From positions 1 to 24,227 of IMG/VR virus record IMGVR_UViG_3300025096_000131: 24,227 nt of DNA. One strand, given 5' to 3'. Of this stretch, positions 2,871 to 24,227 are shown piece by piece. The translations under genes were made by a program, and so were the position numbers. The notes under the pieces were generated by a model that was not told the origin of the DNA, ran no database searches, and was given only the letters and a program-made list of their open reading frames with translations. The stretch's first letter is position 1. Each line of letters begins with the position of its first letter. The DNA is from a virus.

Positions 2871-3043
2871 TGGCTATTAGATTACCAGCATGGTTTCGTA
2901 GAGAAATAAAAAAGATAGTTCGGGAAGCAATGGATGAATGGACTGTTGATTGTGAGTACTTAACGCCTAATAAAGGTGAAGGTCGTTATTATTGTTCTAA
3001 ACCTGATTGTGAAGGGGTTGCATTTAATACAGAAAATTCCTGA
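2870..3043 (+). CDS. Unknown 57-residue protein with three cysteines
   Basis: ATG at 2870 shares its A with the preceding stop codon (TAATG), and the ORF ends at TGA 3041-3043, giving 57 residues. The N-terminal half is a basic amphipathic helix (MAIRLPAWFRREIKKIVREA). The second half holds Cys in DCEYL, YYC and PDC, which could form a small metal site, but only three Cys are present and none of the spacings matches a named zinc motif. It is the last gene of its unit; the terminator stem starts at the last base of the stop codon. Confidence 0.7.
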   Translation: MAIRLPAWFRREIKKIVREAMDEWTVDCEYLTPNKGEGRYYCSKPDCEGVAFNTENS

Positions 3044-3066
3044 CCCCCTCTGTGGGGTTTTTTTTT
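3043..3066 (+). terminator. Rho-independent terminator
   Basis: ACCCC (3043-3047) pairs with GGGGT (3054-3058) around a six-base loop, followed by nine T's (3058-3066). It closes the unit that runs from the glycosyltransferase through the three small genes. A late-type promoter box follows 44 bases later. Confidence 0.85.
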
Positions 3067-3109
3067 ATGGTTTCCTAAAAAATAGCGGAAACCCTTGCGT
3101 CGCTCTATA

Positions 3110-3116
3110 GTAAATA
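3110..3116 (+). promoter_or_regulatory. Late-promoter-like box GTAAATA
   Basis: GTAAATA resembles the CTAAATA boxes ahead of gp25 and the glycosyltransferase gene. It follows a terminator, as expected for a new transcription unit. It lies 10 bases from the ATG at 3127 but 22 bases from the ATG at 3139; the second figure matches gp25 (24) and gp8 (19). Confidence 0.4.
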
Positions 3117-3126
3117 GTAACGTTGG

Positions 3127-3408
3127 ATGTTAAAAGCGATGACTAACGCAACTGAACACGATTTGGATCATGAAGTTTATCTTGACCCTAAAGATAATAA
3201 GGAACATATTAATGGTGGGGTACTTGAGTATTCTAAGGAAGATTTAAAAACTTCTCATGCTTATTATGATGAGTACCATAAAAATGATGAAATTGATCCC
3301 AATAGTGGTAAAATCAATGATTATCATACACGACACCAAGATTCAAAATTAGAGGTGTATTGTGAGAATCATCCTGATGCATTCGAATGTAGAGTTTACG
3401 ACGAATAA
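3127..3408 (+). CDS. Protein with a CP12-type C-terminal tail
   Basis: This 93-residue, hydrophilic, probably disordered protein has eight His and many Asp/Glu. Its last 15 residues, CENHPDAFECRVYDE (79-93), match the C-terminal CP12 signature CxxNPxxxECRxYxD: two Cys with eight residues between them, Pro in the fifth position, ECR, then Tyr and an acidic end. In CP12 this disulfide loop binds GAPDH and, with PRK, shuts down the Calvin cycle in the dark; cyanophages are known to carry cp12. Differences are clear: the N-terminal Cys pair and the AWDxVEEL helix of host CP12 are absent, and residues 1-70 match nothing I know. It could be a divergent phage CP12 or an unrelated protein carrying a mimic tail. 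The longest reading is given; ATG 3139 (89 residues) fits the promoter spacing better. Confidence 0.65.
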   Translation: MLKAMTNATEHDLDHEVYLDPKDNKEHINGGVLEYSKEDLKTSHAYYDEYHKNDEIDPNSGKINDYHTRHQDSKLEVYCENHPDAFECRVYDE

Positions 3409-3572: not shown

Positions 3573-3579
3573 CTAAATA
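3573..3579 (+). promoter_or_regulatory. Late promoter box CTAAATA before gp25
   Basis: CTAAATA sits 24 bases upstream of the GTG start of gp25. The same seven bases occur at 1654-1660, and related boxes occur at 1206-1213, 3110-3116 and 19415-19422. Late structural genes of T4-like cyanophages are read from such -10-only boxes by the phage late sigma factor (gp55 family). This one probably drives gp25, gp6 and the giant gene. Confidence 0.65.
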
Positions 3580-3603: not shown

Positions 3604-4005
3604 GTGCCTGTACAAAGGGTAAGTCAATCATTTAAGGATATTAGCGCTACTTTTCAGATTAATCCTCTGAATAGAGATCTAATATCTTTAAATAATTCTT
3701 ATGCTATTGCAAGATCCCTTCGTAATCTTATTATGACAGTTCCAGGTGATCGTCCTTTTAATCCTGTTTTAGGATCACAAGTGACGAATTTACTTTTTGA
3801 AAAACTGGATAAATTGACTGCTGTTACCATCAAATCTGAAATTGTAAACACTATAGAAAACTTTGAACCTAGAGTTAGGTTAAATGAAGTTATAGTAAAT
3901 GCTCAATCTGATAAAAATCAATTTGATGTTATAATTCAATACTACATTGTTGGTATTGATGTTCAGTTACAAGAGCTCACATTCGCATTAGAACCCACTA
4001 GGTAA
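3604..4005 (+). CDS. gp25: Baseplate wedge protein gp25 (GPW/gp25 family)
   Basis: The 133-residue length matches T4 gp25 (132). Diagnostic family features are GDRPFNP at 48-54 and the EPR motif at 88-90 (NFEPRVRL), followed by beta strands and an acidic-aromatic C-terminus. gp25 sits in the inner baseplate, binds the gp6 dimer and gp53, and helps start sheath assembly. The start is GTG at 3604: the in-frame codon two positions upstream is a stop (TAG), and no later start keeps the conserved N-terminus. No clear Shine-Dalgarno is present. gp6 begins on the base after its stop codon, so the two subunits are probably coupled in translation, as suits their shared assembly. Confidence 0.95.
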   Translation: MPVQRVSQSFKDISATFQINPLNRDLISLNNSYAIARSLRNLIMTVPGDRPFNPVLGSQVTNLLFEKLDKLTAVTIKSEIVNTIENFEPRVRLNEVIVNAQSDKNQFDVIIQYYIVGIDVQLQELTFALEPTR

Positions 4006-5961
4006 ATGCCTTTAGTAAATTTTAGCAATATCGATTTTGATCAAATTAAGGTCTCTATACGAGACTATTTGAAAGCGAACAGCAATTTTACTGATTATGA
4101 TTTTGAGGGATCAAACCTATCTACAATTATAGACACATTAGCATATAATACATATATCTCCTCATATAATGCTAATATGGTGAGTAATGAGGTGTTTATT
4201 GACAGTGCTACCCTAAGAGAGAATGTAGTCTCTCTGGCAAGGAATATAGGGTATGTACCTAGGTCAAGAAAAGCAGCAACAGCAACAATTTCTTTTGAAG
4301 TTAATGTTGCTACGAAGAATATATCAACAATAACTCTACAACCAGGAATTATTGCAACATCTAGTCTTCTTTTTGGAAATCAATCTTATGTTTTTTCCGT
4401 TTTAGAGGAAACTAAGGCAACTGTAAGTCCTGGAGGCATTGCATCTTTCCAAAATGTTCCAATTTATGAAGGAACTTTTGTTAAACAGTCATTTGCAGTC
4501 AGTTCTAGGACTCCTAATCAGCGATTTATCCTCACTAACACTGGAATTGACACCAGTTTACTTAAAGTTATAGTAAAAAGAGACGAAAGTTCCACTGTTT
4601 CAAGAGTTTTTAGACAATTTAACAGTTTATATAAGATAGATTCTCAAACTCCCATATATTTTCTTCAAGAAGTAGAAGATGAGAGGTATGAATTACTCTT
4701 CGGAGATGGAATTTTTGGAATGGAGTTGAGTGAATCCGCTTTATCTTATATCGAAACAACTTATGTGGTTAATAGTGGTGAATTAGGTAATAATATTTCA
4801 CAATTTTCCTTTGCTGGTCAGTTATTAGACCAAAATGGGGCAGCTGTTACCACTGGAATTTCAGTTATTAATACAGAAATTGCCTCTTATGGAGGATCTT
4901 CCATTGAAAGTGTAGAATCGGTTAAAAAATATTCTACTCAAATCTATTCTGCTAAGAATAGAGCAGTAACTGCTTCAGATTATGAAGCAATTATACCCCA
5001 AATTTACCCAGAAACAGAATCTGTTTCTGCTTATGGTGGTGAAACTTTAAATCCACCAGCATATGGAAGAGTTTTTATCAGCGTTAAACCACATAATGGC
5101 ACTCATTTGTCTAGTTCCATTAAAAGAAGCATTGCAAATGACTTAAGAAGGTACTCTGTTGCTGGAATTATCCCCGAAATTGTTGATTTGAAGTATTTGT
5201 GGTTAGAATCTAATTCTAATGTTTATTATAATACCAATCTATCTTCAGGTCCTGAGAATGTAAAATCAACAGTATTATCAAATATTCTAACTTACTCAAA
5301 TTCTTCTCAGTTAAATAAATTTGGTGGGAGATTTAAGTATAGTAAATTCCAAAAAGTCATTGATGACAGTAGTGAAGCAGTAACTTCTAATATCACAACA
5401 GTGGCTATGAGAAGAGATCTGGAAGCTGCCTTAGGTCAATTTGGTGAATATGAAATTTGCTTTGGTAATAGATTCTATATTAGAAACCCCGGGAAACCTC
5501 CAGTGATGGATAATGAAGTTATTGGATATAATATTAGGTCTTCTGGATTTAAAGTGAGTGGATTAAGTAGTACTCTTTATTTGGGAGATACTCCAAATTC
5601 AGATTTAAAAACAGGATCACTGCTTTTCTTTAAATTAAATTCCCCCACAGAGGTTGTAGTGGTTAAAAAATCAGTTGGTACAATTGATTACATTAAAGGA
5701 GAAGTTAAACTTAATCCTGTTAAATTTATACAAACTGAAATGAATCGTAAATCATCTTTACTTGAAATTTCTGCCACTCCTTATTCCAATGATGTGATTG
5801 GATTACAGGACCTTTATTTACAACTAGATATGAATAACGTGGTAGTTTCTATGGTGGATGACAGAATTTCTTCTGGAAATGATAATTCTGGTAGTAATTA
5901 TCTTGTTAAATCTAGTTATGTAAATAATTTAATTCGTGGAAACCCTATTTACTCTTCATAA
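4006..5961 (+). CDS. gp6: Baseplate wedge protein gp6 (baseplate J-like)
   Basis: At 651 residues it is close to T4 gp6 (660). The N-terminal region has the typical run of short helices (NTYISSYNANMVSNEVF, then ATLRENVVSLARNIGYVP; about residues 47-90). The central core around 316-361 has RAVTASDYEAI, a YGGE turn and YGRVFISVKP, which are hallmarks of the gp6/baseplate J-like fold. gp6 forms the dimer ring that ties the six wedges together and contacts gp25, gp53 and gp7. The ATG directly abuts the gp25 stop, and TAGG three bases upstream may assist initiation. No frameshift or unusual codon use was seen. Confidence 0.95.
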   Translation: MPLVNFSNIDFDQIKVSIRDYLKANSNFTDYDFEGSNLSTIIDTLAYNTYISSYNANMVSNEVFIDSATLRENVVSLARNIGYVPRSRKAATATISFEVNVATKNISTITLQPGIIATSSLLFGNQSYVFSVLEETKATVSPGGIASFQNVPIYEGTFVKQSFAVSSRTPNQRFILTNTGIDTSLLKVIVKRDESSTVSRVFRQFNSLYKIDSQTPIYFLQEVEDERYELLFGDGIFGMELSESALSYIETTYVVNSGELGNNISQFSFAGQLLDQNGAAVTTGISVINTEIASYGGSSIESVESVKKYSTQIYSAKNRAVTASDYEAIIPQIYPETESVSAYGGETLNPPAYGRVFISVKPHNGTHLSSSIKRSIANDLRRYSVAGIIPEIVDLKYLWLESNSNVYYNTNLSSGPENVKSTVLSNILTYSNSSQLNKFGGRFKYSKFQKVIDDSSEAVTSNITTVAMRRDLEAALGQFGEYEICFGNRFYIRNPGKPPVMDNEVIGYNIRSSGFKVSGLSSTLYLGDTPNSDLKTGSLLFFKLNSPTEVVVVKKSVGTIDYIKGEVKLNPVKFIQTEMNRKSSLLEISATPYSNDVIGLQDLYLQLDMNNVVVSMVDDRISSGNDNSGSNYLVKSSYVNNLIRGNPIYSS

Positions 5962-5980: not shown

Positions 5981-8900
5981 ATGGCAATAGATAGAATCCA
6001 ATTCCAAGACCTAGTTACTGGCCAACTCCCAACGTATGTTCAGGAAGATTTTCCTCTTCTTGGGGAATTTTTACAGCAATATTATTTGTCTCAAGAGATA
6101 GATGGTGGAACATATGATCTATTGCAAAATATGGATCAATATGTAAAAGTTGATGAATTATATAATCTTAAAGATTCTACTCTATTGGGTGATGATGTTT
6201 CATTTGTAGATACCACTGTAAGTACAGACGCTTCTACTAATTTTACGCAAGGATTTCCAGAAAAGAATGGTATTATAAAAATTGATAATGAGATCATATT
6301 CTATGGTAATAAGACTACAACCTCTTTTGAGAACTGTATAAGGGGGTTCAGTGGCATTACAACCTACATTGGGAGTGATACCCCAGATAAGTTAGTATTT
6401 AAAGAAACTGTTACTGAGAAGCATGAGAAGGGGAGTGAGATACAGAATTTAAATATTCTATTCCTTAAGGAATTTTTCAGAAAACTTAAGCGTCAGGTTG
6501 TTCCTGGATTTTCTGAAAGGGAATTGAGTGGTGATCTCAATGAAAGAAATTTTCTTTTTGGTGCTAGTAGTTTTTATGATGCCAAAGGAACTGATGAAGG
6601 ATTTAAAATACTTTTCAGAGCATTGTATGGAGATGAAGTAAAAGTTCTCAAACCTAGTGAATTTTTATTCCGTCCTTCAGATACTGATTATGTGGTTACT
6701 CAAGATTATGTTGTTGAAAAAATAAGTGGCGATCCTGAAGATCTTAAGAATTTAACTCTTTTCCAAGATAGCACTCAATCTAGAGGAACAGTAACTAATG
6801 TTCAGAATTTGCTTTATGGAGACGGAGAATATTATCAAATTAGTATTGATGCTGGATATCAAAGAGATATTGACTTAAGTAGTGGAACTATTTTTGGAAA
6901 GTTTAAACCTAATCCAAAAACTCAACTTTTAACTACTGTTGGATCTGGAACTACAGTTTTAGATGTTGATTCCACTATTGGATTTCCTCCTTCTGGAGAA
7001 TTAGATACTCTTGATGAAGATGGAAAGCAACTTAAATTAAAGTATGGAAGTAAAAGTTCTAATCAATTTTTCGACGTTCTAACAGGTGCTGGAGTTACTT
7101 TAACTAAAAGAATTGAGAGAAAAGAAGATATACATTTAGATGACTATTCATATGCTTATGTTGGCATTACTACATCTACTCAAATTAAAGTTAGATTTAC
7201 TACTACTCTTAAAGATCTTCAATTAGATGAACCAACATATTTGTATAATGTAAATGATACTATTAAACTCCAATCTTTGGGAATAGAATCTGATGTAATT
7301 AGATCTGATAATTGGAATTTTAACGTTAAAACCGAGTGGGATATTAATAAGGTTTCTCTAATTGATGCTACTGAGAATAAGTATCTTTTTAGTACTCATG
7401 ATGAAAACATTTTAAGACCAGGATATGATATTACTGTAACTGACGCATTTGATTCTCTTACTGGTGGAAGGGTTATTAAGAAAACCTCCGGAATAGGATT
7501 TGAAGCTGTTTTGGCTAGCGGTATTGATCTTAATGGCAACTATAGAGTAGAGAATAAACTATTAAAGGGTAATCAAGAAAATCATACTTTAATTAATCAG
7601 TCTATTGCTAATGTTCAAAATACATACTCCAAATTTGATGGAGAAGTTTTAGTAGCATCTAATTCTATTCCTAGTTGGGGTGAAGATGTAGATTTAAACG
7701 TTTATGATAAAATAAAATCTTTCTCAGGAAGAGCTAATGGAGAAATCATCACTTTTGATGGAACTGATGACCATGGATTCTATACTGGTAATGGTGTTTA
7801 TTATGAGGCAGGAAATATTGTAACTACTACTCTCATTTATCAGAGAACTCTTACTTCTACTTCCATCAGTAAGTTTGATAATATGGATCAAGGGGTCTAC
7901 TATGTTTATAGAGTAGATGCTACTAGTATTAAGCTTTCTAGAAGCAGATCAGATCTATATGAACAAAAGTATATTACTCCTTCTGGGGACGTAGTTAATA
8001 ATAAATTTATCTATTATCCTTATTATCAAAAATCAATATCTCCTCAAAGTCTTTATAGAAAAGTTATTGATCCTCTTAAAAAGGATGATTCTTATGAGAC
8101 TTATACTGGACATACCGGAATTTTACTTAATGGCGTAGAAATCATTAATTATAAATCTGGAGATCAAATAATTTATGGTGATGTAAAAAATGTGGATATT
8201 ATAGATGGTGGAAGTGGATATGATATAATTAATCCTCCTCTTTTCCATGTTTCTGATGTTGTTGGAACTGGTCTTACTGGAATATCTGCAGTTGAAGGTA
8301 GTTTAGAAGAGATCAAAGTAGTAGATAAAGGATTTGATTATATTGATGCTCCTATAGTTACTATTAGCGGAGGAAATCCTATACAGACTGCTTCTGCAGA
8401 AGCTATTATAACTGATATTGTTCATACAGTTTCTTTTAATGCAGAAAGAGCAGGTGGTAATATAGCGGTTTCTACAGATGGTGGATTATCTGGTATTGGT
8501 ACTACTTCTGCATCTATAGGTTTCTCCACTTATCATAAGTTTGCTCCTTCTGAAAAAATCATTTATAAGACAAATGGGGGGGACGCTCTTGTAGGTCTAG
8601 TTACTAATTCTGCTTATTTTGTACAAGTTGTTAATGATTCTAAGATTAAACTTCATGGTAGTTATAGCGACGCTGTTGTGGGCGTTAATACTATAGAATT
8701 TACAAATTATGGAACAGGCATACAAAATATTCAATCTGCAAATAAAAAGAATATAGTAACCAATATAGTTGTAACTGATTCTGGTTCTGGATATCAAAAT
8801 AAGAAGAGAGAGATTGTTGTTAGTGGAATTAATACTGCTAGTAATTTAATTAAGATCACTAATCACGGATATGAAACTGGGGAAACTATCAGATATAGTT

Positions 8901-11900
8901 ATGAAGGAGGGTCTAATACGTTATCTGGACTTTCTACTACTACTGATTATTATGTTTCTAAGTTAGATGATGATAATTTTAGACTATGTTTAGTAGGAAG
9001 TGGTAGTACAACAAATTATTATTTAAATAATAAAATCTACGTTTCTTTAGGTTCTACTGGAACAGGATCTTTTAATTATAAACCTATTACTGTTACTATT
9101 GATGGCAATATTGGTATTGCTACTTTAACAGGCCAAGATTTTAGAGCTAAGATTCAGCCAAGATTTAGAGGCCAAATTAACTCTATTGATTTAACTAATA
9201 ATGGAACTGGATATGGTTCTTCTGAAATTTTTAATTTGGATAGACAACCAGAAATTGATTTCTATAGTGGAAATGGTGCTTTAGTAAGTCCGGTTATTAG
9301 TAATGGTAAAATTGTTGATATAGTTATTACTTCTAACGGTAGTCAGTATAATTCACCTCCAAATCTTGTACTTAGTGGGGTGGGATCTTTTGCTAGATTA
9401 ACTCCTATTATTAATAATGGGCAACTTATAGAAATTAAGATAATTAACAGTGGTATAGGATATGAAGAGGGTAAATCTTCTATTAAAGTTGAAGCAGCAG
9501 GTAAAAATGCCGTTACTGATGTAGATATTAGAAGATGGAATATTAATGCTTTTGAAAGAGATTTTAATAATATTTCAGCGGATGATACATTCTTAAGTAA
9601 TAATATTTCAAATACTTCTTTGCAGTATGGATACATATATGTTCCTCGTTATTTGAGAGAAAATACATACGGAATAACTGAAGGAAAAATTTTATATGGA
9701 AATCCAGATTTAAGAAGAGATGTTGTTACTGGAGAAGAAGAAGATAGTAAATATCATTCTCCCATTATTGGATGGGCATATGATGGAAATCCCATTTATG
9801 GTCCTTATGGTTATGCCACTCCTAGTGGTGGTTCTATTACCAGAATGCAATCTGGGTATCAATTACAAGTTAATCCCACCAATAGACCTGATGTAGGATT
9901 ATACAAGGAAGGATTTTTCACAGAAGATTATAGTTTCGAGGATGAAGGACATTTGGACGTCCATAATGGAAGATTTTGTGTAACTCCTGATTATCCTAAT
10001 GGTGTTTATGCATATTTTGCTACTATTGATGCTGTTAATAGTGGAATTTCACCATTTGCTAAATCTAGACCTCCTGTTTTCCCCTATTTAATTGGACAAA
10101 GTTATCATTCTGAACCTATTGATTTTAATTTCACAAATTCTTCTAATCAACAAGAATATGATATAGTAAGCCATACTTGGTTAAGGAATACATCTCCTTA
10201 TAATCTAGATGCATCTAAGAGTGGATATGATTATATTTTTAATTCTAATAGTTTAAAACAACAAACTCTTAATGTTGAAGCAGCAACTGTTGGAAATGTA
10301 GAATCAGTAAAAATTATTAGTGGTGGAGATAATTATCAAGTTAAAGATAAAATTTTCTTTGATAATGGTGGAACTGCTGGAAGTGGAGCAAGAGCAAAAG
10401 TTGAGAAAATTGGTGGAAAGAAAATTATAACTGTTACTACTAATACGTCAGAAATTACTGATGTGGAGTTCGGTAGTAATAATTTTGATCAATTAATTGG
10501 TTTTTGTACTACCCCACACCCCCTCAGTGATGAAGATGCAGTAAACATTACAGGCCTTTCTACTCATTATCCAGTAAGTAGTGGGGAATTTGAGGTTGGA
10601 GTAAGATCTGATAATTTTATATTGAATTTGGGGATAGGTGATACATCCACTACTGGTATAGTTACTTATTTCTATGTGGGAGGTAATTTACATTATCCAC
10701 ATATTAGACCTAATGATATCCTAGGAATAGGAACTGAAAAGGTTAAGGTTTTAAATATTGATAAAAAGAGTGAAAGAATTAGAGTTCTTAGAGAAGTTGA
10801 GGGGACAAAAACTTCTGGAATTGCTTATACTAGCAGTAGAGCATTATTTGAAATTCCTAGGAAGTTTAGGATTGATGTAGGACTTTCTAAAACTACTAAA
10901 TCTTTCAATGTAAATGAGGAATTCTATTTCTATCCTCCCGAAACGGTTGGACTAGGAACAGTTACTCCTACTGGAGCTGGAACCACCATTGTTTTTGGAA
11001 ATCCAGGAGTTGGAGTTGCTTCTATATTCCTTGAGCCACGATCTCTCCGTCTCCCAGATCATAGATTAAAACTCAATGATAAAGTTACTTATAATGTTAA
11101 TAAATTGAATAATGGAGATGTTGCAACTGCTATTTCTGCTTGGAATGGAATTACAACTACTACTCCCGGTCCTCATTATGCACCTTTAACAGATCATGCA
11201 ACTCTTTATGTTGCTCCTCTTACTAGGGATACTATTGGATTGGCTACTAATCCTGTTGGATTAGCATCTACTGGTGGTGGATATGCTGGTATTGGTACAG
11301 ATCTTGGATTGTTATACTTCACATCAGTAGGAACAGGCAATTATCATAGTCTGAAGACTTCTTTTGATGATGTCTTAACTGCTCAAGTAAGTATTAGCAC
11401 TGTTACTGTTGCCGTATCTACTGCTCATGGATTGTCTAAAGGAGATACTGTCTTTATAGATTTAAATCCCAAAAATACTAAAACAATAGATGTTAGATAT
11501 GATGATTATAATAGAAGAATGGTATTTGACCCCACAAGTTTTTCTACTGGAGATGTAGATGTTGCTCAAAATACTATTACTCTAAGTGATCATGGATTTA
11601 ATACTGGGGATAAGGTAATCTATAAGTCAGACTCTCCTATGACTAACCTTCAGCATGAGGGAATGTATTTTGTTATAGTAGATTCTCCAGATAAAATTAA
11701 ATTAGCTAATTTAGAAATCGATGTAACCAATGGAGTTCCTATTAATATATCTGGAGAATCTGCTGGAATTATATGTAGAATTAATCCTTTAATTGAAATT
11801 AGTAAAAATCAAACTTTAAAATTTGATTTATCACATTCAACTTTAGCTTTTATTCAAAATAGTGTTACATATTCTGCTTTTGATTTAAATCTTTATAGTG

Positions 11901-14900
11901 ATAGTAGGTATAGTAGTCAATTCTGGACTTCTAAATCTACATCAGCATTTGAAGTTACCAAGAGTGGAAATCCGGGAATAACCACTACTGCTAATTTGAC
12001 TTTAGAATTTAAAGATAATGTTCCTGATAATCTATGGTATAAATTCTCTTTACAGAATCCCGATATTATTCCCAATATCAAAAGTGAAATGATCATTGAT
12101 AGGGAATCCTATGGTTATACTAAAATTAATGCAGTAAAGACTCTCTATGATGGACAACAGAATGTTGTAGGAGTTGGAACTACTACATTTACCTATAATC
12201 TTAAGAGACCTCCTCTCAAATCAGGATATGGTTCTACTGATTCTTCTCCAACCTATGAGACTACTTCTCTTACATCTAATGGGACTATTAAGAAAGTAAA
12301 AGTTACTAATACTGGATTTTCTTATAAAAATTTACCAGGAATTGCTAGTATCACTAGTACTTTAGGTGCAGGAGCTCTTTTAGAAGCAGAAAGTAAGAAT
12401 GTAGGATCTATCTTGGCAACTGAATGGGATGCTAATGGAATTGGATGGGCATATCCTTCTGATCAAACTTTAAGAGGAGTTGCAAATCTTCCAGAAATTT
12501 TAAAGGTAGAACCATTATCTTCCTTTAAGAGTATTGGTGTTACTTCTGCAGGTAAAGATTATCTAGTAGCACCAGATTTGATTGTTATTGATGGATATAC
12601 TAAAGAAGTCCTTACTGAGGCGGATATAGAATATGAATTAGGTGATAATCAAGTTAATATTTTATATAACCCCACAGGAATCTATAATACCCCTCCTACC
12701 ATCTTACCCATTAATAATTCTAATGGAGTTGGAATTACTTCACTTTCTTATACTGATGCTACTAAGACAGTAAGACTGTATCTTAATGCTTCATTTAGTG
12801 ATGCTGAAGATTTTCATTATAAAGTAGGTGAGCCTATTTTAGTTGAAAATGTTAATGTTGGGGTGGCTACACTTGGAAAGGGTTATGACTCTGCTGGTTA
12901 TAATTACGTTCTTTTTGACGTCACTGCAGTTGACTCTCAGTTGGGTGGAAGTGGTGCTTGGGTGGAATATAGTCTAGAAGATCATCTAGGGTCTGGAGAG
13001 GTTCCTGGAGCAGTCTTATCACAGACTTCTTATGCTAGAGTAATATCTAAGAATCAATTCCCAATCTTTAATCCAGTCTTGAAGAAAAATAATTTTGCAA
13101 TTGGGGAAAATGTAACTAATGGTGAAACTATTGGTGTTGTAGAGTCTTGGAATAACAAAACTGAGTTTTTAAAAGTTTCAGTTAGCAAAGAATATAGTGT
13201 TGGTGAGATAGTTAAAGGATTAAGTTCCAATACTCAAGGACTAATTGGAAATAAAATTAATTTCAATTCTACTATTAAAACTGGAGCTGGTGCAACTATA
13301 ATCGATGGATGGCAAAAGATTACTGGATTCTTGAATAATAGTATGCAGAAGTTGCCTGATAATCAATATTATCAAAACTTCTCTTATTCACTTAGTTCTA
13401 AAGTTCCTTTCGAAACTTGGGATGATCCTGTAAGTATTCTTAATCATACATCTGGGTTTGAAAAATTTGCTGATTTACAAGTTATAAGCGAACAAGAAAA
13501 TCCATTTCAACTAGTTGCAGGAGCTGATGACAGTAATATTGAGGTTGTGGTTGATGTTATTAGTGAAGGTTCTTTAAATTGTGAATATAATTTTGACTAT
13601 GTTAGTGAAGGTACTGTTTATATAAATGGATCTTTTTTCTCTACTGATATTAGATTTGAAAATAGAATTATAAGTGATTATTATGAATCTGTTGGAAATA
13701 GAGTTCTTACTATAGATGATTTTAGTTCCTCCTTTAATAGTAATGAAGGAACTAGTAAGTATGGAAAAGTAGGAGCAGGTAATTCAAACTATACTTATAG
13801 TAAGATAATAACTTATGTGAAGGATAGAAGTTATACTGATGAACGACAATTTGCAGTTGTAGGTGTTGTTCAAAATGAAGCATTAGGTTATGTTGCCCAA
13901 TACGCAACTATTGAGTCTGTTGATGATCTGGGATATTACAGTTATCTCAACACCTCTACTGGTTGGGATTTAACTTTCTATCCCAATAATTATGAGACTA
14001 GAACTTATGATATGTCTACTCTCAATTTCAGTATTCTAAACAATTATAGTGGAGTTACTACTACTGCTCAATTGGGCGATGTTGTTAATATTAATAGTGG
14101 AGTATCAACAGTTGCTGCTGGTGTTACAGGCACCCTTGTTTCTATATCTAACACTTATAGGGCTGCAAAAGTCTTAGCAATGGTTCAGGATAGCAGTAAT
14201 AATTATACTGCACAAGAATTCAATATGATTCATGATGATTCAGTTGTATTCTTACAGGAATATGGAAATATTGATAATGTAGATAGCACAGTCTTTACTG
14301 GATTTGGAACATTTAATGCTTATTTGGATGCATCAAATCTCAAATTAGATTTCATCTCATCTTATGATTCACAAGTAACATGTAATGCATCTATTGTTGC
14401 TATTGCAGATACAGCAACTGGAATTGGTACTTATTCTCTTACTGCTTCTAGATTAAGTTCAGATTATGTTGCTATAGCAGCAACAACCATTTTAGCAGCA
14501 ACTACAGTTGCTACTTTTGATACTCCTTATGATGCCGGATATTATGTTGTTTCTGTGAAGGATACTACTAATGATCTTTATGAATTATTAGAAATAGGAT
14601 GCATTAAACAAGGAACTGATCAAGAAGCATTACTTGTAGAATATGGCAATGTGGGAACTGGGGGAAGTATAGGTAAAATTGGAATTTCTGCTTCTGGAAG
14701 TACTGCGCTTAATATCACTTATACTCCTAATACTTCTACTGCTGTTCAGGTGAGAGCATTTGGTGCTGATATGCAGGTTTATAATGATAATAGCAATGAT
14801 TCAGCAATGCCTGCAGATAATATTGTTATTCATTCCAACTATGGATCTTATAGTGGAACTAAATTAAATCTTCAAACTCAGTTTGCTCTTAATCATGATG

Positions 14901-17900
14901 GAAATGCAATCTTTAAGAGGATATTTGATGGAAGTGATGCTGGAATTGCAGATACAACAGAAAATTATATAAGAATTGCAGACCATTATTGGGTTAGTGG
15001 GGAAAATGTTCAATATGGTTGGCCTGGAACGGGCACAACTATGTCCATTGGAATCGATGAAACTGTAGTTGCTGGAATTGGAACAACTGATAAGTTGCCT
15101 GGTGATTTATATGTGGTTAAAGTTGATGATGGGAAATTAAGATTTTCAGGTAGTGCAGAAGATGCTTTAGCATCTAATCCTACTACTTTTGAACTTAGAT
15201 CTGTTGGTGTTGGTGAATCTCATACTATTACCTCCAAGAAACAGAATACAAAGGCATTATTATGCATTGATAACATGATTCAATCTCCTCTGGTAGCTAC
15301 TGCTGTTACTACAACTTTGGGAGAAAATATTGTTTTCCAAGATAAGTTCCTTACTACAGGAATTACTTCTATTGCTTCTCAAGACATCATTAAGATGGAT
15401 GAGGAATATATGCTTATTGAAAGTATCGGTGTGGGCGCAACTTTCAGAATAGAAGTTGAAAGAGGTAAGATGGGAAGTGCTATTGCTATCCATACTTCTG
15501 GAGCACTTATCACTAAGATGGCTGGCAATTATCAGATTGTTGATAATACCCTCAATTTCTCAGAACCTCCTCATGGTCAAGTTCCTTTAAGCACTTCTAC
15601 TGCTCAACCAGATGATAGGGATTGGGTAGGAATTACCACTAATTCTACTTTCCAAGGTAGAACTTTTATGAGAAGAGCTGCTGAAGGAACTAATGAAGAA
15701 ACATATGCTAGCAATTATGTCTTTGATGATATTTCTAATCAATTTACAGGAATTAAGAGTGACTTTATTCTAAAGGCTGATGGTTCAAATACCACTGGAT
15801 TCTCAACAAATAATGCAGTTATTTTGATTAATGGAGTATTCCAACTTCCAGAAGGAGAGCAAGATAATTTACCTAATAATTATACTATTAATGAAGCAGA
15901 TCCTGGTGTTTCTACTATCACCTTTAGTGGAGATATTAGAGAATATGGATATGATCCCAGTAGAGCTGAATTCCCAAGAGGTGGGATGATTGTTTCAGTA
16001 GCAGCTACTTCTGGATTCGCTTATCAACCTTTAGTGGGAGCAGCAGCAACTGCTGTCGTTGGATCTGCAGGAACTATTACTAGTGTAAGTATTGGTAATA
16101 GTGGATCTGGTTATAGGTCAGGTGTTCAAGGTACAGTAGTTGTTGGTGTTCAGACTTATAATACCGGTATTGCATCCGCAGTTCCAATTGGAACAGCCAC
16201 CATCAGTGAAGGTCATATTACTGCAGTTGCTATTACTAGTGATCCAAAATTCTATATTCCAAGATCTATATCTGGTGTGGCATATAGTTCTGTTACAGGA
16301 ATGACTACTGTAACTACTAATTGGAAGCATGGATTGGATGCTGGTGATCAGATTCTATTGTCTGGTATTGCCTTTACTTGTGAATATGCCCCCTCAGTAT
16401 CTGTGGGCATTGCAACTTACACCAATACTAGTGGTGTGATGACAGTTACTACTTCAACTGTTCATGGATTAAATGCCAGCAAGACTAAAGATTTTGTTAT
16501 TCTAACTGGATTGGGATTCACTTGTGCTATTGATTCTGGAGTGAGTACTCATTTCTATCCTAGAGCAAAAGATCCATTCTATGATACTGCTGTTTCAATT
16601 GCATCTACTACTGCTACCACTATTACTCTGAATGTTGGATTTGCTAATGCTGGTCAGCAATATACTCATACTTGGAAAGGTGGGACCGCAACAAATGCTA
16701 TTCAAAGCGGTGGTAATTATGGGCATAAGTTTGTAAGAGCTAAGTCTCATTCGGTATTAGCAGATTCGGGTGCTACATTTACGCCTCAGCATGTTGCTTA
16801 TACTCCATCAATTGGAATAGTAACTATGACTATGCCAAGTCATGGTCTTACAACTTCCAATAGTGTTAAGATTGATCTTAATTCTTTGACACTTACTTGT
16901 GCTATGGATGCTTATAGAACTGAGCATACTTATCCCAGAACAAGTGATTCTATTGCAGGCATATTTACAGCAATTACTAGTGTAACTACAGATACAATTG
17001 GATTTAATGTTGGAGTTTCTACTATTGTTAATCACAGCATTACTACTGCCACTTATAATGCATCTACTGGTGTAATGGCTTTGACTATTGGTGCTCATAC
17101 ATTGAAGACAGGAACTAGTGTTAAGATTGCTGAAGAATCATTGACATTTGACTGTTCTAGAGATGGATATGCTACAGATCACAAGTATCCAAGAAGAGGA
17201 GATCCTTTCTTCAATGGAATGAAGGTTATTAATGTTAATACTACTAGAGAATTTGAAGTTAATGTGGGAACTTCAACTGTACCAACTTTCTATAAGACTG
17301 GGGGAATAGTTCAACCTGCTATTATTGCTCCTAGACAAGGAACCAGTAGTGCTGGAACAGGAATTGCTACAGGTGTAGATCCTGCCTTTAATGGCACTCC
17401 AATCAATAGAATTATTAGCGATACTCAGTTTGAAGTTAATACAGGTATATCTACCAGAGATCATCATTATGCTAGAGGTGGAACTGTTTCTCAACCAGTT
17501 GAGATAGTTATTGATGAACCTTTAAGTTATGACAATATTATGCTTCAATATAGTGCAGAATCTCAATCTGGGGTAGGTAAGAGTGCTACAGTTGATATTG
17601 TAGTAGGACAAGGATCTAGTGTTGTTGATTTCACTATAAGAGATTTTGGATATGGTTATGGTAATGGGGAAATTTTAACACTTCCTGTAGGAGGAACCAC
17701 TGGTATTCCTACAGATACTACTACTAATGTATTTGCAGAATTTGCATTAACTATTGAAAATATCTTTACAGATAGTTTTAATGGTTGGTCACTTGGACAA
17801 CTACAAGTGTTGGATAAATTAGATTCTCAATTCGATGGAACCACAAAGGCATTTAGACTTTCAGTTAATGGAGAAACTGTTTCTATTCAGGCTTCTAAAG

Positions 17901-19408
17901 GATCTGCTATTGATGTAGAAGATACTTTACTAGTCTTTATTAATGATGTTCTTCAAGAACCTGGAGTTGGATATGAATTTGAGGGAGGAAGTGTAATTAC
18001 TTTCTCAGAATCTCCTAGGGGTGCATATTTGGAAAATGGAAATGTAGCAGTTGGAGATAGTTCTAAGATTCTCTTCTATAAAGGCGCTGGAAATGTTGAT
18101 GTTGTTTTCAAGGATGTATTAGATACTGTGAAGAAGGGTGACACATTAGATATTGGATATAGTCCATTAAAGGGCCAAACCGTAATTCTGGATCAAGATC
18201 CTAGAATCATTACTGGAATCAACACTATTGATACAGTTGAAACTAATTTATATAATGGTGTTGGAATTACTACAGATATTACTGTTGGTAGACCAGTTAC
18301 ATGGTGCAAACAGACAGTTGATATTATGTCAGACAATACCAAAATTGGAAAAGATAGAATTCATTATGAACCTTTAATTAGTCCAGTATCTTATCTTATT
18401 AATTCTGTAGGTTTAGGAACTACAGCATTCTATGTTAATGATTTAATACCTTCTTTTAATCCTAAGAATGAAATTGAAAATGATAACCAAAGAAGTACCT
18501 GGCAAGATATTATTGAAATAAATGATCAAAATACATTAACTGGCGCTGCAGCTACTGCACTTGTTTCTGTTGGTGGAACAATTTCCTCTATTGTCATTAG
18601 TAGTGGTGGTATTGGATATACTGCTGCACCTATTGTTACTATTTCCAATCCCGTTGGGGGTGGTGGTAGTACTGGAGTAGGGTTAGCAACAGCAAATATA
18701 AGTAGTGCTGGAACTGTAACTTCTGTTATTATTTCTTATGGCGGAACAGATACTGGGTTCGCTTATACTTCTACCAATCCTCCTGCTGTTCTTATTCAAC
18801 CTCCTATTATAGAGAGAGAAAAGATTAATGTAGATTCTTATGAAGGTGATTCTGGTGTAATCGTTGGAGTTGGAACTACAACTTCTGGATCACAGCAACA
18901 ATTCTATTTTGACCTCTTTATTCCTCAAGGTTCTTATTTAAGAGATACTAATATTGTTTCTACTGCTGTGACAGTAAGTGGATTGGGTACAGATGATTAC
19001 TTTGTAGCTTTTGACACTAATGCATCTATTGGGAGTACTTTCGCAACAGAATCTGGGGATGGTACTACTACAGTTGGAATTGGAACTACTCAACTTGATG
19101 CTGTATACAGGGTTAAGAGTGTAGAAACAAGAACTATGGTTAATGTGACTGCTGGATCAACTATTGGGTTCTCAACTGATGTGAGAAGAGTATTTGTTAA
19201 TATTGATAGTTATAATATTGGAATTGCTTATACTACTTCTCCTTTCATAGGACAATTTAGTTGGGGTAAGATTAACTCTGAAGCGAGAGTGGGTCCAAAG
19301 AGTTTTGATGCTCATACCATGACTGGTATTGGTACACCGGGGAGTGGAATTTCTACCTCTAGTGTGGTGAAGAGGTTTAATGATCTTAAATACACAGCTT
19401 ACACCTAA
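5981..19408 (+). CDS. Giant gp7-like baseplate protein, 4475 residues, with YHYH domain and beta-repeat modules
   Basis: A single unbroken frame of 13.4 kb in the gp7 position between gp6 and gp8. Residues 1-330 have wedge-type features: EIIFYG with CIRGFSG (about 101-125), LFLKEFFRKLK, and FYDAKGTDEGFKILFRALYG (198-217), which resembles T4 gp7's DFYSTKGIEASYKFLFKVLY. Downstream are at least 13 GxGY-type beta units from 743 to 4274; several HG(L/F)..GD units; a YHYH-type domain (about 1250-1375, SPIIGWAYDGNPIYG); three related modules at 2603-2930; an ILINGVFQ/FINDVLQ pair (3280s and 3985-4013); a repeat array with (H/F)xYPRxxD(P/S) at 3440-3800; and a C-terminal domain with FSWGKI. It probably joins the wedge through its N-terminus while the remainder forms peripheral or host-contact structures. 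The start lies 19 bases after gp6. T4 gp7 has 1032 residues. Confidence 0.85.
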   Translation: MAIDRIQFQDLVTGQLPTYVQEDFPLLGEFLQQYYLSQEIDGGTYDLLQNMDQYVKVDELYNLKDSTLLGDDVSFVDTTVSTDASTNFTQGFPEKNGIIKIDNEIIFYGNKTTTSFENCIRGFSGITTYIGSDTPDKLVFKETVTEKHEKGSEIQNLNILFLKEFFRKLKRQVVPGFSERELSGDLNERNFLFGASSFYDAKGTDEGFKILFRALYGDEVKVLKPSEFLFRPSDTDYVVTQDYVVEKISGDPEDLKNLTLFQDSTQSRGTVTNVQNLLYGDGEYYQISIDAGYQRDIDLSSGTIFGKFKPNPKTQLLTTVGSGTTVLDVDSTIGFPPSGELDTLDEDGKQLKLKYGSKSSNQFFDVLTGAGVTLTKRIERKEDIHLDDYSYAYVGITTSTQIKVRFTTTLKDLQLDEPTYLYNVNDTIKLQSLGIESDVIRSDNWNFNVKTEWDINKVSLIDATENKYLFSTHDENILRPGYDITVTDAFDSLTGGRVIKKTSGIGFEAVLASGIDLNGNYRVENKLLKGNQENHTLINQSIANVQNTYSKFDGEVLVASNSIPSWGEDVDLNVYDKIKSFSGRANGEIITFDGTDDHGFYTGNGVYYEAGNIVTTTLIYQRTLTSTSISKFDNMDQGVYYVYRVDATSIKLSRSRSDLYEQKYITPSGDVVNNKFIYYPYYQKSISPQSLYRKVIDPLKKDDSYETYTGHTGILLNGVEIINYKSGDQIIYGDVKNVDIIDGGSGYDIINPPLFHVSDVVGTGLTGISAVEGSLEEIKVVDKGFDYIDAPIVTISGGNPIQTASAEAIITDIVHTVSFNAERAGGNIAVSTDGGLSGIGTTSASIGFSTYHKFAPSEKIIYKTNGGDALVGLVTNSAYFVQVVNDSKIKLHGSYSDAVVGVNTIEFTNYGTGIQNIQSANKKNIVTNIVVTDSGSGYQNKKREIVVSGINTASNLIKITNHGYETGETIRYSYEGGSNTLSGLSTTTDYYVSKLDDDNFRLCLVGSGSTTNYYLNNKIYVSLGSTGTGSFNYKPITVTIDGNIGIATLTGQDFRAKIQPRFRGQINSIDLTNNGTGYGSSEIFNLDRQPEIDFYSGNGALVSPVISNGKIVDIVITSNGSQYNSPPNLVLSGVGSFARLTPIINNGQLIEIKIINSGIGYEEGKSSIKVEAAGKNAVTDVDIRRWNINAFERDFNNISADDTFLSNNISNTSLQYGYIYVPRYLRENTYGITEGKILYGNPDLRRDVVTGEEEDSKYHSPIIGWAYDGNPIYGPYGYATPSGGSITRMQSGYQLQVNPTNRPDVGLYKEGFFTEDYSFEDEGHLDVHNGRFCVTPDYPNGVYAYFATIDAVNSGISPFAKSRPPVFPYLIGQSYHSEPIDFNFTNSSNQQEYDIVSHTWLRNTSPYNLDASKSGYDYIFNSNSLKQQTLNVEAATVGNVESVKIISGGDNYQVKDKIFFDNGGTAGSGARAKVEKIGGKKIITVTTNTSEITDVEFGSNNFDQLIGFCTTPHPLSDEDAVNITGLSTHYPVSSGEFEVGVRSDNFILNLGIGDTSTTGIVTYFYVGGNLHYPHIRPNDILGIGTEKVKVLNIDKKSERIRVLREVEGTKTSGIAYTSSRALFEIPRKFRIDVGLSKTTKSFNVNEEFYFYPPETVGLGTVTPTGAGTTIVFGNPGVGVASIFLEPRSLRLPDHRLKLNDKVTYNVNKLNNGDVATAISAWNGITTTTPGPHYAPLTDHATLYVAPLTRDTIGLATNPVGLASTGGGYAGIGTDLGLLYFTSVGTGNYHSLKTSFDDVLTAQVSISTVTVAVSTAHGLSKGDTVFIDLNPKNTKTIDVRYDDYNRRMVFDPTSFSTGDVDVAQNTITLSDHGFNTGDKVIYKSDSPMTNLQHEGMYFVIVDSPDKIKLANLEIDVTNGVPINISGESAGIICRINPLIEISKNQTLKFDLSHSTLAFIQNSVTYSAFDLNLYSDSRYSSQFWTSKSTSAFEVTKSGNPGITTTANLTLEFKDNVPDNLWYKFSLQNPDIIPNIKSEMIIDRESYGYTKINAVKTLYDGQQNVVGVGTTTFTYNLKRPPLKSGYGSTDSSPTYETTSLTSNGTIKKVKVTNTGFSYKNLPGIASITSTLGAGALLEAESKNVGSILATEWDANGIGWAYPSDQTLRGVANLPEILKVEPLSSFKSIGVTSAGKDYLVAPDLIVIDGYTKEVLTEADIEYELGDNQVNILYNPTGIYNTPPTILPINNSNGVGITSLSYTDATKTVRLYLNASFSDAEDFHYKVGEPILVENVNVGVATLGKGYDSAGYNYVLFDVTAVDSQLGGSGAWVEYSLEDHLGSGEVPGAVLSQTSYARVISKNQFPIFNPVLKKNNFAIGENVTNGETIGVVESWNNKTEFLKVSVSKEYSVGEIVKGLSSNTQGLIGNKINFNSTIKTGAGATIIDGWQKITGFLNNSMQKLPDNQYYQNFSYSLSSKVPFETWDDPVSILNHTSGFEKFADLQVISEQENPFQLVAGADDSNIEVVVDVISEGSLNCEYNFDYVSEGTVYINGSFFSTDIRFENRIISDYYESVGNRVLTIDDFSSSFNSNEGTSKYGKVGAGNSNYTYSKIITYVKDRSYTDERQFAVVGVVQNEALGYVAQYATIESVDDLGYYSYLNTSTGWDLTFYPNNYETRTYDMSTLNFSILNNYSGVTTTAQLGDVVNINSGVSTVAAGVTGTLVSISNTYRAAKVLAMVQDSSNNYTAQEFNMIHDDSVVFLQEYGNIDNVDSTVFTGFGTFNAYLDASNLKLDFISSYDSQVTCNASIVAIADTATGIGTYSLTASRLSSDYVAIAATTILAATTVATFDTPYDAGYYVVSVKDTTNDLYELLEIGCIKQGTDQEALLVEYGNVGTGGSIGKIGISASGSTALNITYTPNTSTAVQVRAFGADMQVYNDNSNDSAMPADNIVIHSNYGSYSGTKLNLQTQFALNHDGNAIFKRIFDGSDAGIADTTENYIRIADHYWVSGENVQYGWPGTGTTMSIGIDETVVAGIGTTDKLPGDLYVVKVDDGKLRFSGSAEDALASNPTTFELRSVGVGESHTITSKKQNTKALLCIDNMIQSPLVATAVTTTLGENIVFQDKFLTTGITSIASQDIIKMDEEYMLIESIGVGATFRIEVERGKMGSAIAIHTSGALITKMAGNYQIVDNTLNFSEPPHGQVPLSTSTAQPDDRDWVGITTNSTFQGRTFMRRAAEGTNEETYASNYVFDDISNQFTGIKSDFILKADGSNTTGFSTNNAVILINGVFQLPEGEQDNLPNNYTINEADPGVSTITFSGDIREYGYDPSRAEFPRGGMIVSVAATSGFAYQPLVGAAATAVVGSAGTITSVSIGNSGSGYRSGVQGTVVVGVQTYNTGIASAVPIGTATISEGHITAVAITSDPKFYIPRSISGVAYSSVTGMTTVTTNWKHGLDAGDQILLSGIAFTCEYAPSVSVGIATYTNTSGVMTVTTSTVHGLNASKTKDFVILTGLGFTCAIDSGVSTHFYPRAKDPFYDTAVSIASTTATTITLNVGFANAGQQYTHTWKGGTATNAIQSGGNYGHKFVRAKSHSVLADSGATFTPQHVAYTPSIGIVTMTMPSHGLTTSNSVKIDLNSLTLTCAMDAYRTEHTYPRTSDSIAGIFTAITSVTTDTIGFNVGVSTIVNHSITTATYNASTGVMALTIGAHTLKTGTSVKIAEESLTFDCSRDGYATDHKYPRRGDPFFNGMKVINVNTTREFEVNVGTSTVPTFYKTGGIVQPAIIAPRQGTSSAGTGIATGVDPAFNGTPINRIISDTQFEVNTGISTRDHHYARGGTVSQPVEIVIDEPLSYDNIMLQYSAESQSGVGKSATVDIVVGQGSSVVDFTIRDFGYGYGNGEILTLPVGGTTGIPTDTTTNVFAEFALTIENIFTDSFNGWSLGQLQVLDKLDSQFDGTTKAFRLSVNGETVSIQASKGSAIDVEDTLLVFINDVLQEPGVGYEFEGGSVITFSESPRGAYLENGNVAVGDSSKILFYKGAGNVDVVFKDVLDTVKKGDTLDIGYSPLKGQTVILDQDPRIITGINTIDTVETNLYNGVGITTDITVGRPVTWCKQTVDIMSDNTKIGKDRIHYEPLISPVSYLINSVGLGTTAFYVNDLIPSFNPKNEIENDNQRSTWQDIIEINDQNTLTGAAATALVSVGGTISSIVISSGGIGYTAAPIVTISNPVGGGGSTGVGLATANISSAGTVTSVIISYGGTDTGFAYTSTNPPAVLIQPPIIEREKINVDSYEGDSGVIVGVGTTTSGSQQQFYFDLFIPQGSYLRDTNIVSTAVTVSGLGTDDYFVAFDTNASIGSTFATESGDGTTTVGIGTTQLDAVYRVKSVETRTMVNVTAGSTIGFSTDVRRVFVNIDSYNIGIAYTTSPFIGQFSWGKINSEARVGPKSFDAHTMTGIGTPGSGISTSSVVKRFNDLKYTAYT

Positions 19409-19441: not shown

Positions 19442-20998
19442 ATGGCAGCGATAATTACTGATCAACTTCGTATATTAAACGCGAAGAATTTTATTGCTGG
19501 GGTACAAACCAGCACTAATTCTTATTATACGTTTATTGGATTACCTAATTCTGCAGATAATCAATCTGATTGGGATTCTAACTCCCCAACACCCAATGAT
19601 AGTTTCAATGCTTTTAATGAAGATTGGGATACTATGTTGGCTGTTAAAAAAATTGGCACCAACGATGTAAGTCAGGTAGTTAATAAAAATGTATGGGCAT
19701 CTGGAGTAACCTATGATATGTGGAGGAATGATATCACCATTGACAATCAATCCCAACCATCTGGTGTTGCTGATATCTATGCTGCTAATTATTATGTGAT
19801 GAACTCTGATTATAGAGTTTATATTTGTTTGTATAATAATGCAAAACCAGAGAATAATCATAGAGGAGGACCATCTTTAGATGAACCTACTTTTACTGAT
19901 CTAGAACCTAGAACAGCAGGAACTAGTGGAGATGGTTATATTTGGAAATATCTTTATACTATTAAACCTAGTCAAGCTATTAAATTTGATTCCACTAATT
20001 ATATCCCTGTTCCGAGTGAATGGTCTACTAATACTCTAGATGCTGCTGTTAGGCAAAATGCAGCAACTAGTGGCCAGATAAAAATTGTAACTATTAGAAG
20101 TAGAGGTGCTGGTTTAGGAACTGCTAGATCTTATTCAAATGTTCCTATTAATGGAGATGGCGCTGGAGCTAAGGCAACTGTAGTTGTTAATGCTGATTCT
20201 AAAATTGATTCTGTAACTATTTCTAATGGTGGTTCTGACTATTCATTTGGAACTGTAGATTTAGAAGCAGGTGGATTGCCCACAGGGACTACTATTCCAG
20301 ACTGTGATGTTATTATTCCTCCTCCAGGAGGTCATGGATCAGACATCTATAGAGAATTGGGTGCATTTAATGTTTTAACTTATGCAAGATTTGAAAATGA
20401 TACAGAAAATCCAGATTTCATTACAGGAAACCAATTTGCTAGAGTTGGTCTAATAGAAAATCCCAAATTATTTAATTCAGATGGTATTTTTACTGATGAT
20501 AAAGGTAGTTTATCTTATGCAATAAAACTAACTGGTGTTGGTTATAGTGAAGCTACTTTTACTCCTGATAGTTTTGTTACTCAAACAGTTGGGGTTGGAT
20601 CTACTGCTGTTGGAAGAGTTGTTGCTTATGAGCAAATAACAGGTATTTTGAAATTATGGCAAGATAGAGCTACTGCTGGATTTACTACAGTTGGAGCAGC
20701 CATAACAAATCCAACCTATGGATTTACAATGAATAGATTTACTGCAGGTATTTCCACCGGTGGAACTTATAATATTGTCCCAACTACAGGCAATACACTA
20801 GCTATTGAGACTTCCTTTACAGATAATAAAGTGTTAATAAATAATAGAGATTATTATCTGGGACAAGATTTTACTCTAGGTGTTGCTCAACCAGAAGTTC
20901 AAAAATATTCTGGAAATATTATTCATATTGATAATAGACCATCAGTAACAAGGTCCTCGTCCCAAAAAGAAGACGTCAAAATTATCTTGCAATTCTAA
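19442..20998 (+). CDS. gp8: Baseplate wedge protein gp8
   Basis: The 518-residue protein keeps the T4 gp8 landmarks in order: an N-terminal YYTFIGLP strand, WDTMLAVKKI, GDGYIWKYLYTI (T4: GDGYVWEYLFEI), ARFENDTENPDF with RVGLIENPK (T4: FRQISIITNP), and a C-terminal IIHIDNRPSVTR (T4: MIYMENRPPI) ending KIILQF. gp8 forms a dimer that binds gp7 and gp10 on the wedge arm. T4 gp8 has 334 residues; the excess here lies mainly in two insertions, a GxGY beta module at about 215-290 (VTISNGGSDY) and a GxVVAYEQITG-type module at about 370-430, both of kinds present in the giant protein. The ATG 19 bases after a late box is well placed. Confidence 0.93.
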   Translation: MAAIITDQLRILNAKNFIAGVQTSTNSYYTFIGLPNSADNQSDWDSNSPTPNDSFNAFNEDWDTMLAVKKIGTNDVSQVVNKNVWASGVTYDMWRNDITIDNQSQPSGVADIYAANYYVMNSDYRVYICLYNNAKPENNHRGGPSLDEPTFTDLEPRTAGTSGDGYIWKYLYTIKPSQAIKFDSTNYIPVPSEWSTNTLDAAVRQNAATSGQIKIVTIRSRGAGLGTARSYSNVPINGDGAGAKATVVVNADSKIDSVTISNGGSDYSFGTVDLEAGGLPTGTTIPDCDVIIPPPGGHGSDIYRELGAFNVLTYARFENDTENPDFITGNQFARVGLIENPKLFNSDGIFTDDKGSLSYAIKLTGVGYSEATFTPDSFVTQTVGVGSTAVGRVVAYEQITGILKLWQDRATAGFTTVGAAITNPTYGFTMNRFTAGISTGGTYNIVPTTGNTLAIETSFTDNKVLINNRDYYLGQDFTLGVAQPEVQKYSGNIIHIDNRPSVTRSSSQKEDVKIILQF

Positions 20999-24000: not shown

Positions 24001-24227
24001 TTGGTATTTAAGTGGTAGTTATAATTCTTCGGATACTGGAGATATAACAACAGTTAATTCATATAGTGATTTTGAGTATGGAAGTGAGATACCTAGTGTA
24101 AATGGGGTTAGGTGTAGTGATATTGTTGATTGTCGTCCAAGAGTTAGTGATTTTAGTGTAAGTGCTGGATCAAGATCTCCTTTTGAATTTTTAGGAAGAA
24201 GTTTTGATGGAGGACAACATAGTTCTA
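21005..24227 (+). CDS. DUF4815-type phage structural protein, cut by the window edge
   Basis: ATG at 21005 lies six bases after the gp8 stop, and the frame is open to the end of the window (over 1070 codons), so the C-terminus is missing. The N-terminus (MPQETNLNVAPYFDDFD, then FKPAYPVQARELNNLQSIL and FKEGAKVIPG) is characteristic of DUF4815 proteins, which occur in phage tail and baseplate clusters. KISPGKAYVRGYEI (about 355-368) is a conserved central motif. From about 480 it carries beta-rich modules (GATGYLRTE, GNFVIGERITFNG) like those in gp8 and the giant protein. Near the edge, VDCRPRV and SPFEFLGRSF are typical of the family's later part. The role is probably in the outer baseplate or in attachment of fibres; direct function is not known to me. 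It is co-transcribed with gp8. Confidence 0.85.
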   Translation, partial: MPQETNLNVAPYFDDFDTQSNYYKVLFKPAYPVQARELNNLQSILQDQVENVGNHFFKEGAKVIPGQTTYLSSFSAVQIEPQFTGLPVSTYLDQLINKTLTGRRSGVTAKVVKYLTDSESERGNYTLYVDYVESGTDSSSTKEFFDNEILSVSETISFSNTFISAGEGVAQTLASNSSALGSAFGISNGVYFLRGYFVDVFDQLMILDQYSNTPSYRIGLYVQEELVSSESDRSLNDNAQGFSNFTAPGADRLKISADLAKRDLDDFDDQNFVQIAEVRNGILRELDKGGVFNQQLKDELARRTFDESGHYYVREFVTTMKDSLNNGFGNRGLFNVDQLTSGGSKPSKDLAVYKISPGKAYVRGYEIDKNTHSYLDCPKPRTTNTAENQAVNFGFGPTWRVNRTTGSPYVGFNTSTTLGLRSRRVGVDSTTAAGTEIGIARVYDFALESGAYDLPNPNLNRWDLSLFDVQTYTDISINEAHTIPVPSFVEGQSSGATGYLRTEVVVGTGITVYGGKGNFVIGERITFNGIGTDARTAIGVTQYSLSDVESVYGNTTSGSGTGINTFTADLVTSTARVIGIASISAAPTISWIKTNGNISGGVTVTSPGFTWPGIVTTGDLVSFSVGGQTDKHFARVESVATNSIGISSVANVIGICTGDLPHGNGGTLNVTATEVTNFTLLESRLQEQLSSGNAANNESLYSIFPRKNIESINFVDNTLDIRKQFNDLQIDVNGDSSTITAGTDEVFLSFDEERYTMVRSDGSIISLTQGNLDFGSGNTTLTFKGLESGFNNIAKVTATLRQSKITSKQKVRNIGATTLIEYSTNSASGTDVSGGAATLNDGLTFGNYPYGTRVQDAAISLNVPDVTVLYGLFESQDTDDPVPPSMTVGSMDGPTSTSSDLIIGEEVVGSISGSRGKYISKLSNTSIQFIYMNQTVFANNEVVKFLDSGISAVVSSVSIGSKNITQNFTLSSGQKSSIYDYARLLRKADAPIPSQKLKAWYLSGSYNSSDTGDITTVNSYSDFEYGSEIPSVNGVRCSDIVDCRPRVSDFSVSAGSRSPFEFLGRSFDGGQHSS

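Follow-up and report, generated by a model that had tools for sequence, protein, structure and literature searches.

The window, a 24,227-base IMG/VR virus fragment, derives from the part of a T4-like cyanophage genome that encodes the baseplate and contains a short ORF whose predicted product ends in the manner of CP12, a small protein that turns off a key enzyme in photosynthetic carbon fixation. This raises the question of whether the gene encodes a CP12 or, as the original prediction had it, a non-CP12 protein that carries a CP12-type tail. Comparison of sequences and gene order indicates that it is very probably the CP12 gene of the phage itself, in an unusual variant known from P-SSM2 (T4-GC 63, within PHROG 2603), which replaces the ordinary cp12, and for which an action on GAPDH is proposed.

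The ORF is present in the window exactly as first described (Table 1), encoding 93 amino acids when counted from the first ATG and ending in CENHPDAFECRVYDE. Translation probably begins at 3139, the second ATG (89 amino acids), because it is there that the relatives start, with M-T/S-x-x-x-K-H-D-L. Homologues were collected from 80 IMG/VR loci and comprise 60 distinct sequences. The ORF is a coding gene under purifying selection, with dN/dS values of ~0.03-0.15 in most pairs with measurable dS and a lowest value of 0.009. No matching model for the protein was found in NCBIfam, and a megablast search with the whole window returned only short matches, to four phage records.

Table 1 Features of the cp12 locus and neighbouring baseplate genes, with positions in the window
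Feature	Position	Strand	Basis
Hairpin with T-run resembling an intrinsic terminator, between cp12 and the gene upstream	3042..3059	+	Similar hairpin in loci L005 and L038
TAGTAAATA box, candidate late promoter	3108..3116	+	Differs by one mismatch from the CTAAATA boxes (1654, 3573)
CP12-like gene	3127..3408	+	ORF; PF02672 match; phrog_2603 full length E 5.9e-24; purifying selection
Phage-specific conserved N-terminal segment, residues 11-35 (HDLDHEVYLDPKDNKEHINGGVLEY)	3157..3231	+	Conservation, 60 distinct sequences
Putative helix and linker, residues 36-60 (SKEDLKTSHAYYDEYHKNDEIDPNS)	3232..3306	+	Weak profile match
Insert before the tail, residues 61-74 (GKINDYHTRHQDSK)	3307..3348	+	Alignments
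CP12 C-terminal tail, residues 75-93, Cys79 and Cys88	3349..3405	+	PF02672; PDB CP12 chains; Cys invariant 60/60
gp25 baseplate wedge gene, downstream of cp12 in the window lineage	3604..4005	+	PF04965 E 1.5e-14; phrog_261; synteny 7/80 loci
gp6	4006-5961		Baseplate region of the window
gp8	19442-20998		Baseplate region of the window

The resemblance of the tail to CP12 is, by alignment, far beyond chance. The original prediction had proposed a PF02672 profile search and conservation of the tail Cys pair as tests. Searching the 93-residue protein with the profile gave a match above the cut-off (E 6.9e-8, 33.6 bits, gathering score 22.7) that spans residues 69-92 and covers only profile positions 47-70 of 70, and the tail aligns to the CP12 chains in the solved structures 3zdf, 6gfo and 5nmu. 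Both cysteines and their C-x8-C spacing are invariant in all 60 distinct homologues, and the window protein has the ECRVYD-type ending. On the strength of the profile score and the structural alignments the tail is, by sequence, a genuine one of the GAPDH-binding type, as had been suggested; a chance or artefactual CP12 tail is ruled out by the Pfam score and dN/dS.

The nearest annotated homologue, PSSM2_066 of P-SSM2 (T4-GC 63, 267 bp), is full-length, with 71% identity over residues 11-93 (E 3e-33), and is named 'hypothetical protein' in GenBank. Table 3 of Sullivan et al. 2010 lists 'CP12 = carbon metabolic regulator, T4-GC 337 + 63', with 267 bp under P-SSM2 (PMC3037559), and because PSSM2_066 matches this entry in both cluster and length the P-SSM2 type was already recognised as a CP12 in 2010; the cp12 genes of P-HM2 and P-SSM7 belong to T4-GC 337. 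PSSM2_066 and its T4-GC 63 counterpart PRTG_00050 of P-SSM5 have the N-terminal segment, insert and tail of the window protein, although the P-SSM2 gene lies in another genome region and not beside gp25. Cyanophage proteins resembling the CP12 C-terminal region were also noted by Lopez-Calcagno 2014 (PMC3906501), and the window protein, with a C-terminal Cys pair and no N-terminal pair, fits the C-terminal-only class (CP12-C, Stanley 2013) in so far as that class is described in PMC3906501. The 2010 listing of the full-length family, together with its occupation of the syntenic slot of ordinary cp12 (see below), contradicts the description as a non-CP12 protein.

Apart from Cys79 and Cys88 the 93 residues contain no cysteine, and there is no AWD_VEE motif. 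Classical CP12 (Thermosynechococcus, Synechococcus elongatus, plants) and the GapB extension resemble the window protein in the C-terminal Cys pair, which in those proteins forms a hairpin entering the GAPDH active site (PMC4436894, PMC3838966), but classical CP12 has in addition a second, N-terminal Cys pair and AWD_VEE, and GapB is a fusion to GAPDH itself. The loss of a host-type N-terminal Cys pair and AWD helix had been put forward as a departure from the host; the absence stands but the departure does not, as both features are also lacking from 35 distinct CP12s of the Prochlorococcus/marine Synechococcus family (the host set of 36 includes one probable phage copy). The classical CP12-N/C criterion of an N-terminal Cys pair plus AWD_VEE thus excludes the window protein from the classical class only, because it would exclude these host CP12s too. 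Their tail is like that of the window protein, and they differ in an N-terminal MKSIDEHIQKDQ... and RHLxxEL helix and in having no insert. A search for full-length homologues in 79 host and related genomes found none, the matches taking in the tail and no more than part of the region before it.

The part of the protein that lies before the tail allows a different view of the gene, namely that a CP12 tail has been joined to a protein with another job, the N-terminal segment binding a further host or phage target while the tail provides an anchor on GAPDH. Residues 11-35 (HDLxHEVYxDPKDxKEHINHGMLEY) equal the tail in conservation (mean major-residue frequency of 0.92 vs 0.91 over the 60 distinct sequences) and were not seen in the 35 distinct picocyanobacterial CP12s, and CP12 tails do transfer, as in plant GapB and cyanobacterial CBS-CP12 (PMC3906501, PMC4436894; 5nmu). 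We regard this alternative as unlikely, though not negligible, given that the gene occupies the genomic slot of ordinary cp12, that the two did not occur together in the genomes checked, and that the region following the N-terminal segment may line up with the helix of ordinary CP12. Residues 36-60, a putative helix and linker of which the linker is not conserved to this degree (mean major-residue frequency 0.64 over the 60 distinct sequences), are possibly collinear with the host CP12 'ELxxLxEYxxHHPxDxHDPN', and residues 36-58 may correspond to the helix and HDPN linker of ordinary CP12. The profile comparisons are only suggestive on this point and on a homology of residues 1-58 to ordinary CP12: hhalign of the N-terminal half with ordinary CP12 gave E 0.0078 in one comparison, with 9 of 300 column-shuffled controls equally high, and in an earlier profile test against the hosts alone 1 of 50 controls scored higher.

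Between linker and tail lies the insert GKINDxHxRHxD (residues 61-74, mean major-residue frequency 0.89 over the same 60 sequences), which is common to the short PHROG 2603 type (ACG-2014f, S-B05), whereas ordinary CP12 is without it. An AlphaFold model built from 42 sequences had a mean pLDDT of 53, a low value that fits a disordered protein and tests nothing.

Two other phage types are close to the window protein. The ordinary cyanophage CP12 (T4-GC 337, phrog_627; P-HM2, P-SSM7, S-SZBM1) likewise has a C-x8-C tail but lacks the GKINDxHxRHxD insert and has another N-terminal part. The short PHROG 2603 type (ACG-2014f, S-B05 and RB11-B, where it is named 'carbon metabolic regulator') shares a GKIxDxHxRHxDK insert and a CP12-like tail but is only ~65 amino acids long and has no HDLxHEVY segment; the phage copies read have Q or M in place of the Glu that precedes the second Cys. 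Since the short type mostly lacks this residue, PHROG 2603 may not be uniform in function.

Short-type CP12-like proteins were also found in 8 of 201 picocyanobacterial genomes (E 4e-21 to 8e-27), mostly beside a standard CP12 match. These copies are L172-L177 (on contigs of G050, G133, G145, G090, G167 and G185), L178 and L179; the gene in G050 adjoins a cytochrome c assembly gene and its protein has no PF02672 match, and L178 and L179 are reported with an in-frame TGA. Phage-type CP12 genes on contigs filed as Euryarchaeota and Nonlabens genomes (L101-L103, L105) probably represent cyanophage sequence binned or assembled with them; these contigs and one Prochlorococcus single-cell contig (189 kb) were treated as probable phage and not as host.

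The genomic place of the gene is, with mutual exclusion, the main evidence that it replaces ordinary cp12. In P-SSM7 and S-SZBM1 ordinary cp12 lies between the phrog_350 tail gene and gp5, with cpeT in between; the phrog_350 gene is T4-GC 15 in P-SSM7, and the T4-GC 15 product is a detected virion protein (PMC3037559). Genes of the window type share this gp5-side slot: 33 of the 80 loci have the phrog_350 tail gene upstream, most of them with gp5 directly downstream and six with cpeT first. A further 24 loci, in part resembling P-SSM2, have the gene close to one for a DNA methyltransferase, phrog_21547 or phrog_1987, and for the remaining 16 of the 80 the slot was not assigned. The position beside gp25 occurs in seven loci in addition to the window and is a local variant; adjacency to gp25 as a family trait is ruled out by this synteny. 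The original prediction was correct that the gene lies next to baseplate genes, but its being there and not among metabolic genes is no sign of novelty, as ordinary phage cp12 also sits between tail and baseplate hub genes, together with cpeT; because the slot is shared, a baseplate neighbourhood is normal for cp12.

From the same surroundings the product could be taken for a small component of the baseplate or virion, with a CP12-like tail that has no GAPDH function: in most of the 33 loci the gene lies tightly, to within a few tens of bases, between phrog_350 and gp5, and in the window it stands beside gp25. We consider this extremely improbable: ordinary cp12 uses the same slot, other loci, including P-SSM2, are away from baseplate genes, and the tail is a significant match to CP12.

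Further features of the window were noted alongside. Its gp6 is closest to those of the Synechococcus phages RN05-S, RB11-B, S-B05 and S-B43 (61%), followed by P-TIM68 (58%). Positions 5981-19408 form a single ORF of 4475 amino acids whose entire length matches a baseplate wedge family (phrog_2885) and which has a YHYH domain (PF14240) at residues 1186-1351, and an open ORF of at least 1074 amino acids (21005-24226; phrog_358, DUF4815) runs off the window end. The conserved gene at 1699-2523 (phrog_1574, E 3.7e-114, with a weak glycosyltransferase match), preceded by the CTAAATA box at 1654, is kept with cp12 and gp25 in four other loci (L006, L007, L038, L083).

The gene had been described as lying behind a late-type box, a point that needs correction. 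The exact CTAAATA box at 3573 is 3′ of the ORF, in front of gp25, and what lies upstream is the one-mismatch variant TAGTAAATA; similar boxes precede cp12 in L005, L038, L050 and L083, all of them gp25-slot loci. An exact late box (YTAAATA) upstream of cp12 is ruled out for the window ORF and most relatives, with 4 of 59 distinct upstream regions having one within 140 nt. From its position, late expression of the window cp12 is plausible; the well-studied cp12 of P-HM2 is a highly expressed middle gene (PMC5082946).

The upstream box, together with the baseplate or tail gene neighbourhood seen in the window and 40 of the 80 loci, would agree with the suggestion of a second Calvin-cycle inhibitor, expressed late and encoded in addition to an ordinary cp12. 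A PF02672 search for a second CP12 found a single match in each of P-SSM2, ACG-2014f, RB11-B and 13 contigs (≤ 92 kb), and the ordinary-type profile phrog_627, run on 15 records that included P-SSM5, P-SSM2, two ACG-2014f genomes and RB11-B, gave no match or a weak one to that gene. No additional CP12 was thus present in five complete genomes of the window type or the short sister type (ACG-2014f and RB11-B carry the latter and not the window type) or in the longer contigs, although the window, as a 24-kb fragment, cannot itself decide the matter. As the slot is moreover that of ordinary cp12, a second inhibitor is very improbable. The shared slot and the mutual exclusion instead point to an orthologous or functional replacement of ordinary cp12.

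For a phage CP12 of the P-SSM2 type the most likely mechanism is one proposed from known systems. In oxidised CP12 and GapB the hairpin enters the coenzyme site of GAPDH, where the acidic end competes with NADPH and NADPH-dependent activity drops (PMC4436894, PMC3838966); the role of phage CP12 is treated in PMC5082946 and PMC3906501. The tail of the window protein has both the Cys pair and the acidic end. We infer GAPDH binding, redox switching, an effect on flux and a role for the N-terminal part of the window protein. The CP12-like protein would be expressed during infection of a marine picocyanobacterium, and formation of a Cys79-Cys88 disulfide would fold the last ~19 residues into the CP12 hairpin. 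The hairpin would then insert into the active site of host GAPDH on the NADP-binding side, reducing the NADPH-dependent activity of the enzyme, so that carbon flux would shift from the Calvin cycle to the pentose phosphate pathway, a source of NADPH and of the pentoses needed for phage DNA. Both the N-terminal segment and the GKINDxHxRHxD insert would probably tune or extend the binding, to PRK or the GAPDH surface, in place of the N-terminal half of host CP12. A more specific and rather doubtful proposal is that these two parts, the phage-only segment and the HxRH insert, together make up a binding module replacing the PRK-binding half of CP12, by which these phages would hold GAPDH either along with another partner or in a state resistant to release by light-driven thioredoxin.

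The identification as a CP12 corrects the 'hypothetical' or 'unknown function' label borne by PSSM2_066 in GenBank and by PHROG 2603, for a family present in no fewer than 80 marine viral contigs. A divergent CP12 stands in for the ordinary one across a large group of cyanophages, and its conserved, phage-only N-terminal part poses a defined question of how phages rebuild a metabolic switch.
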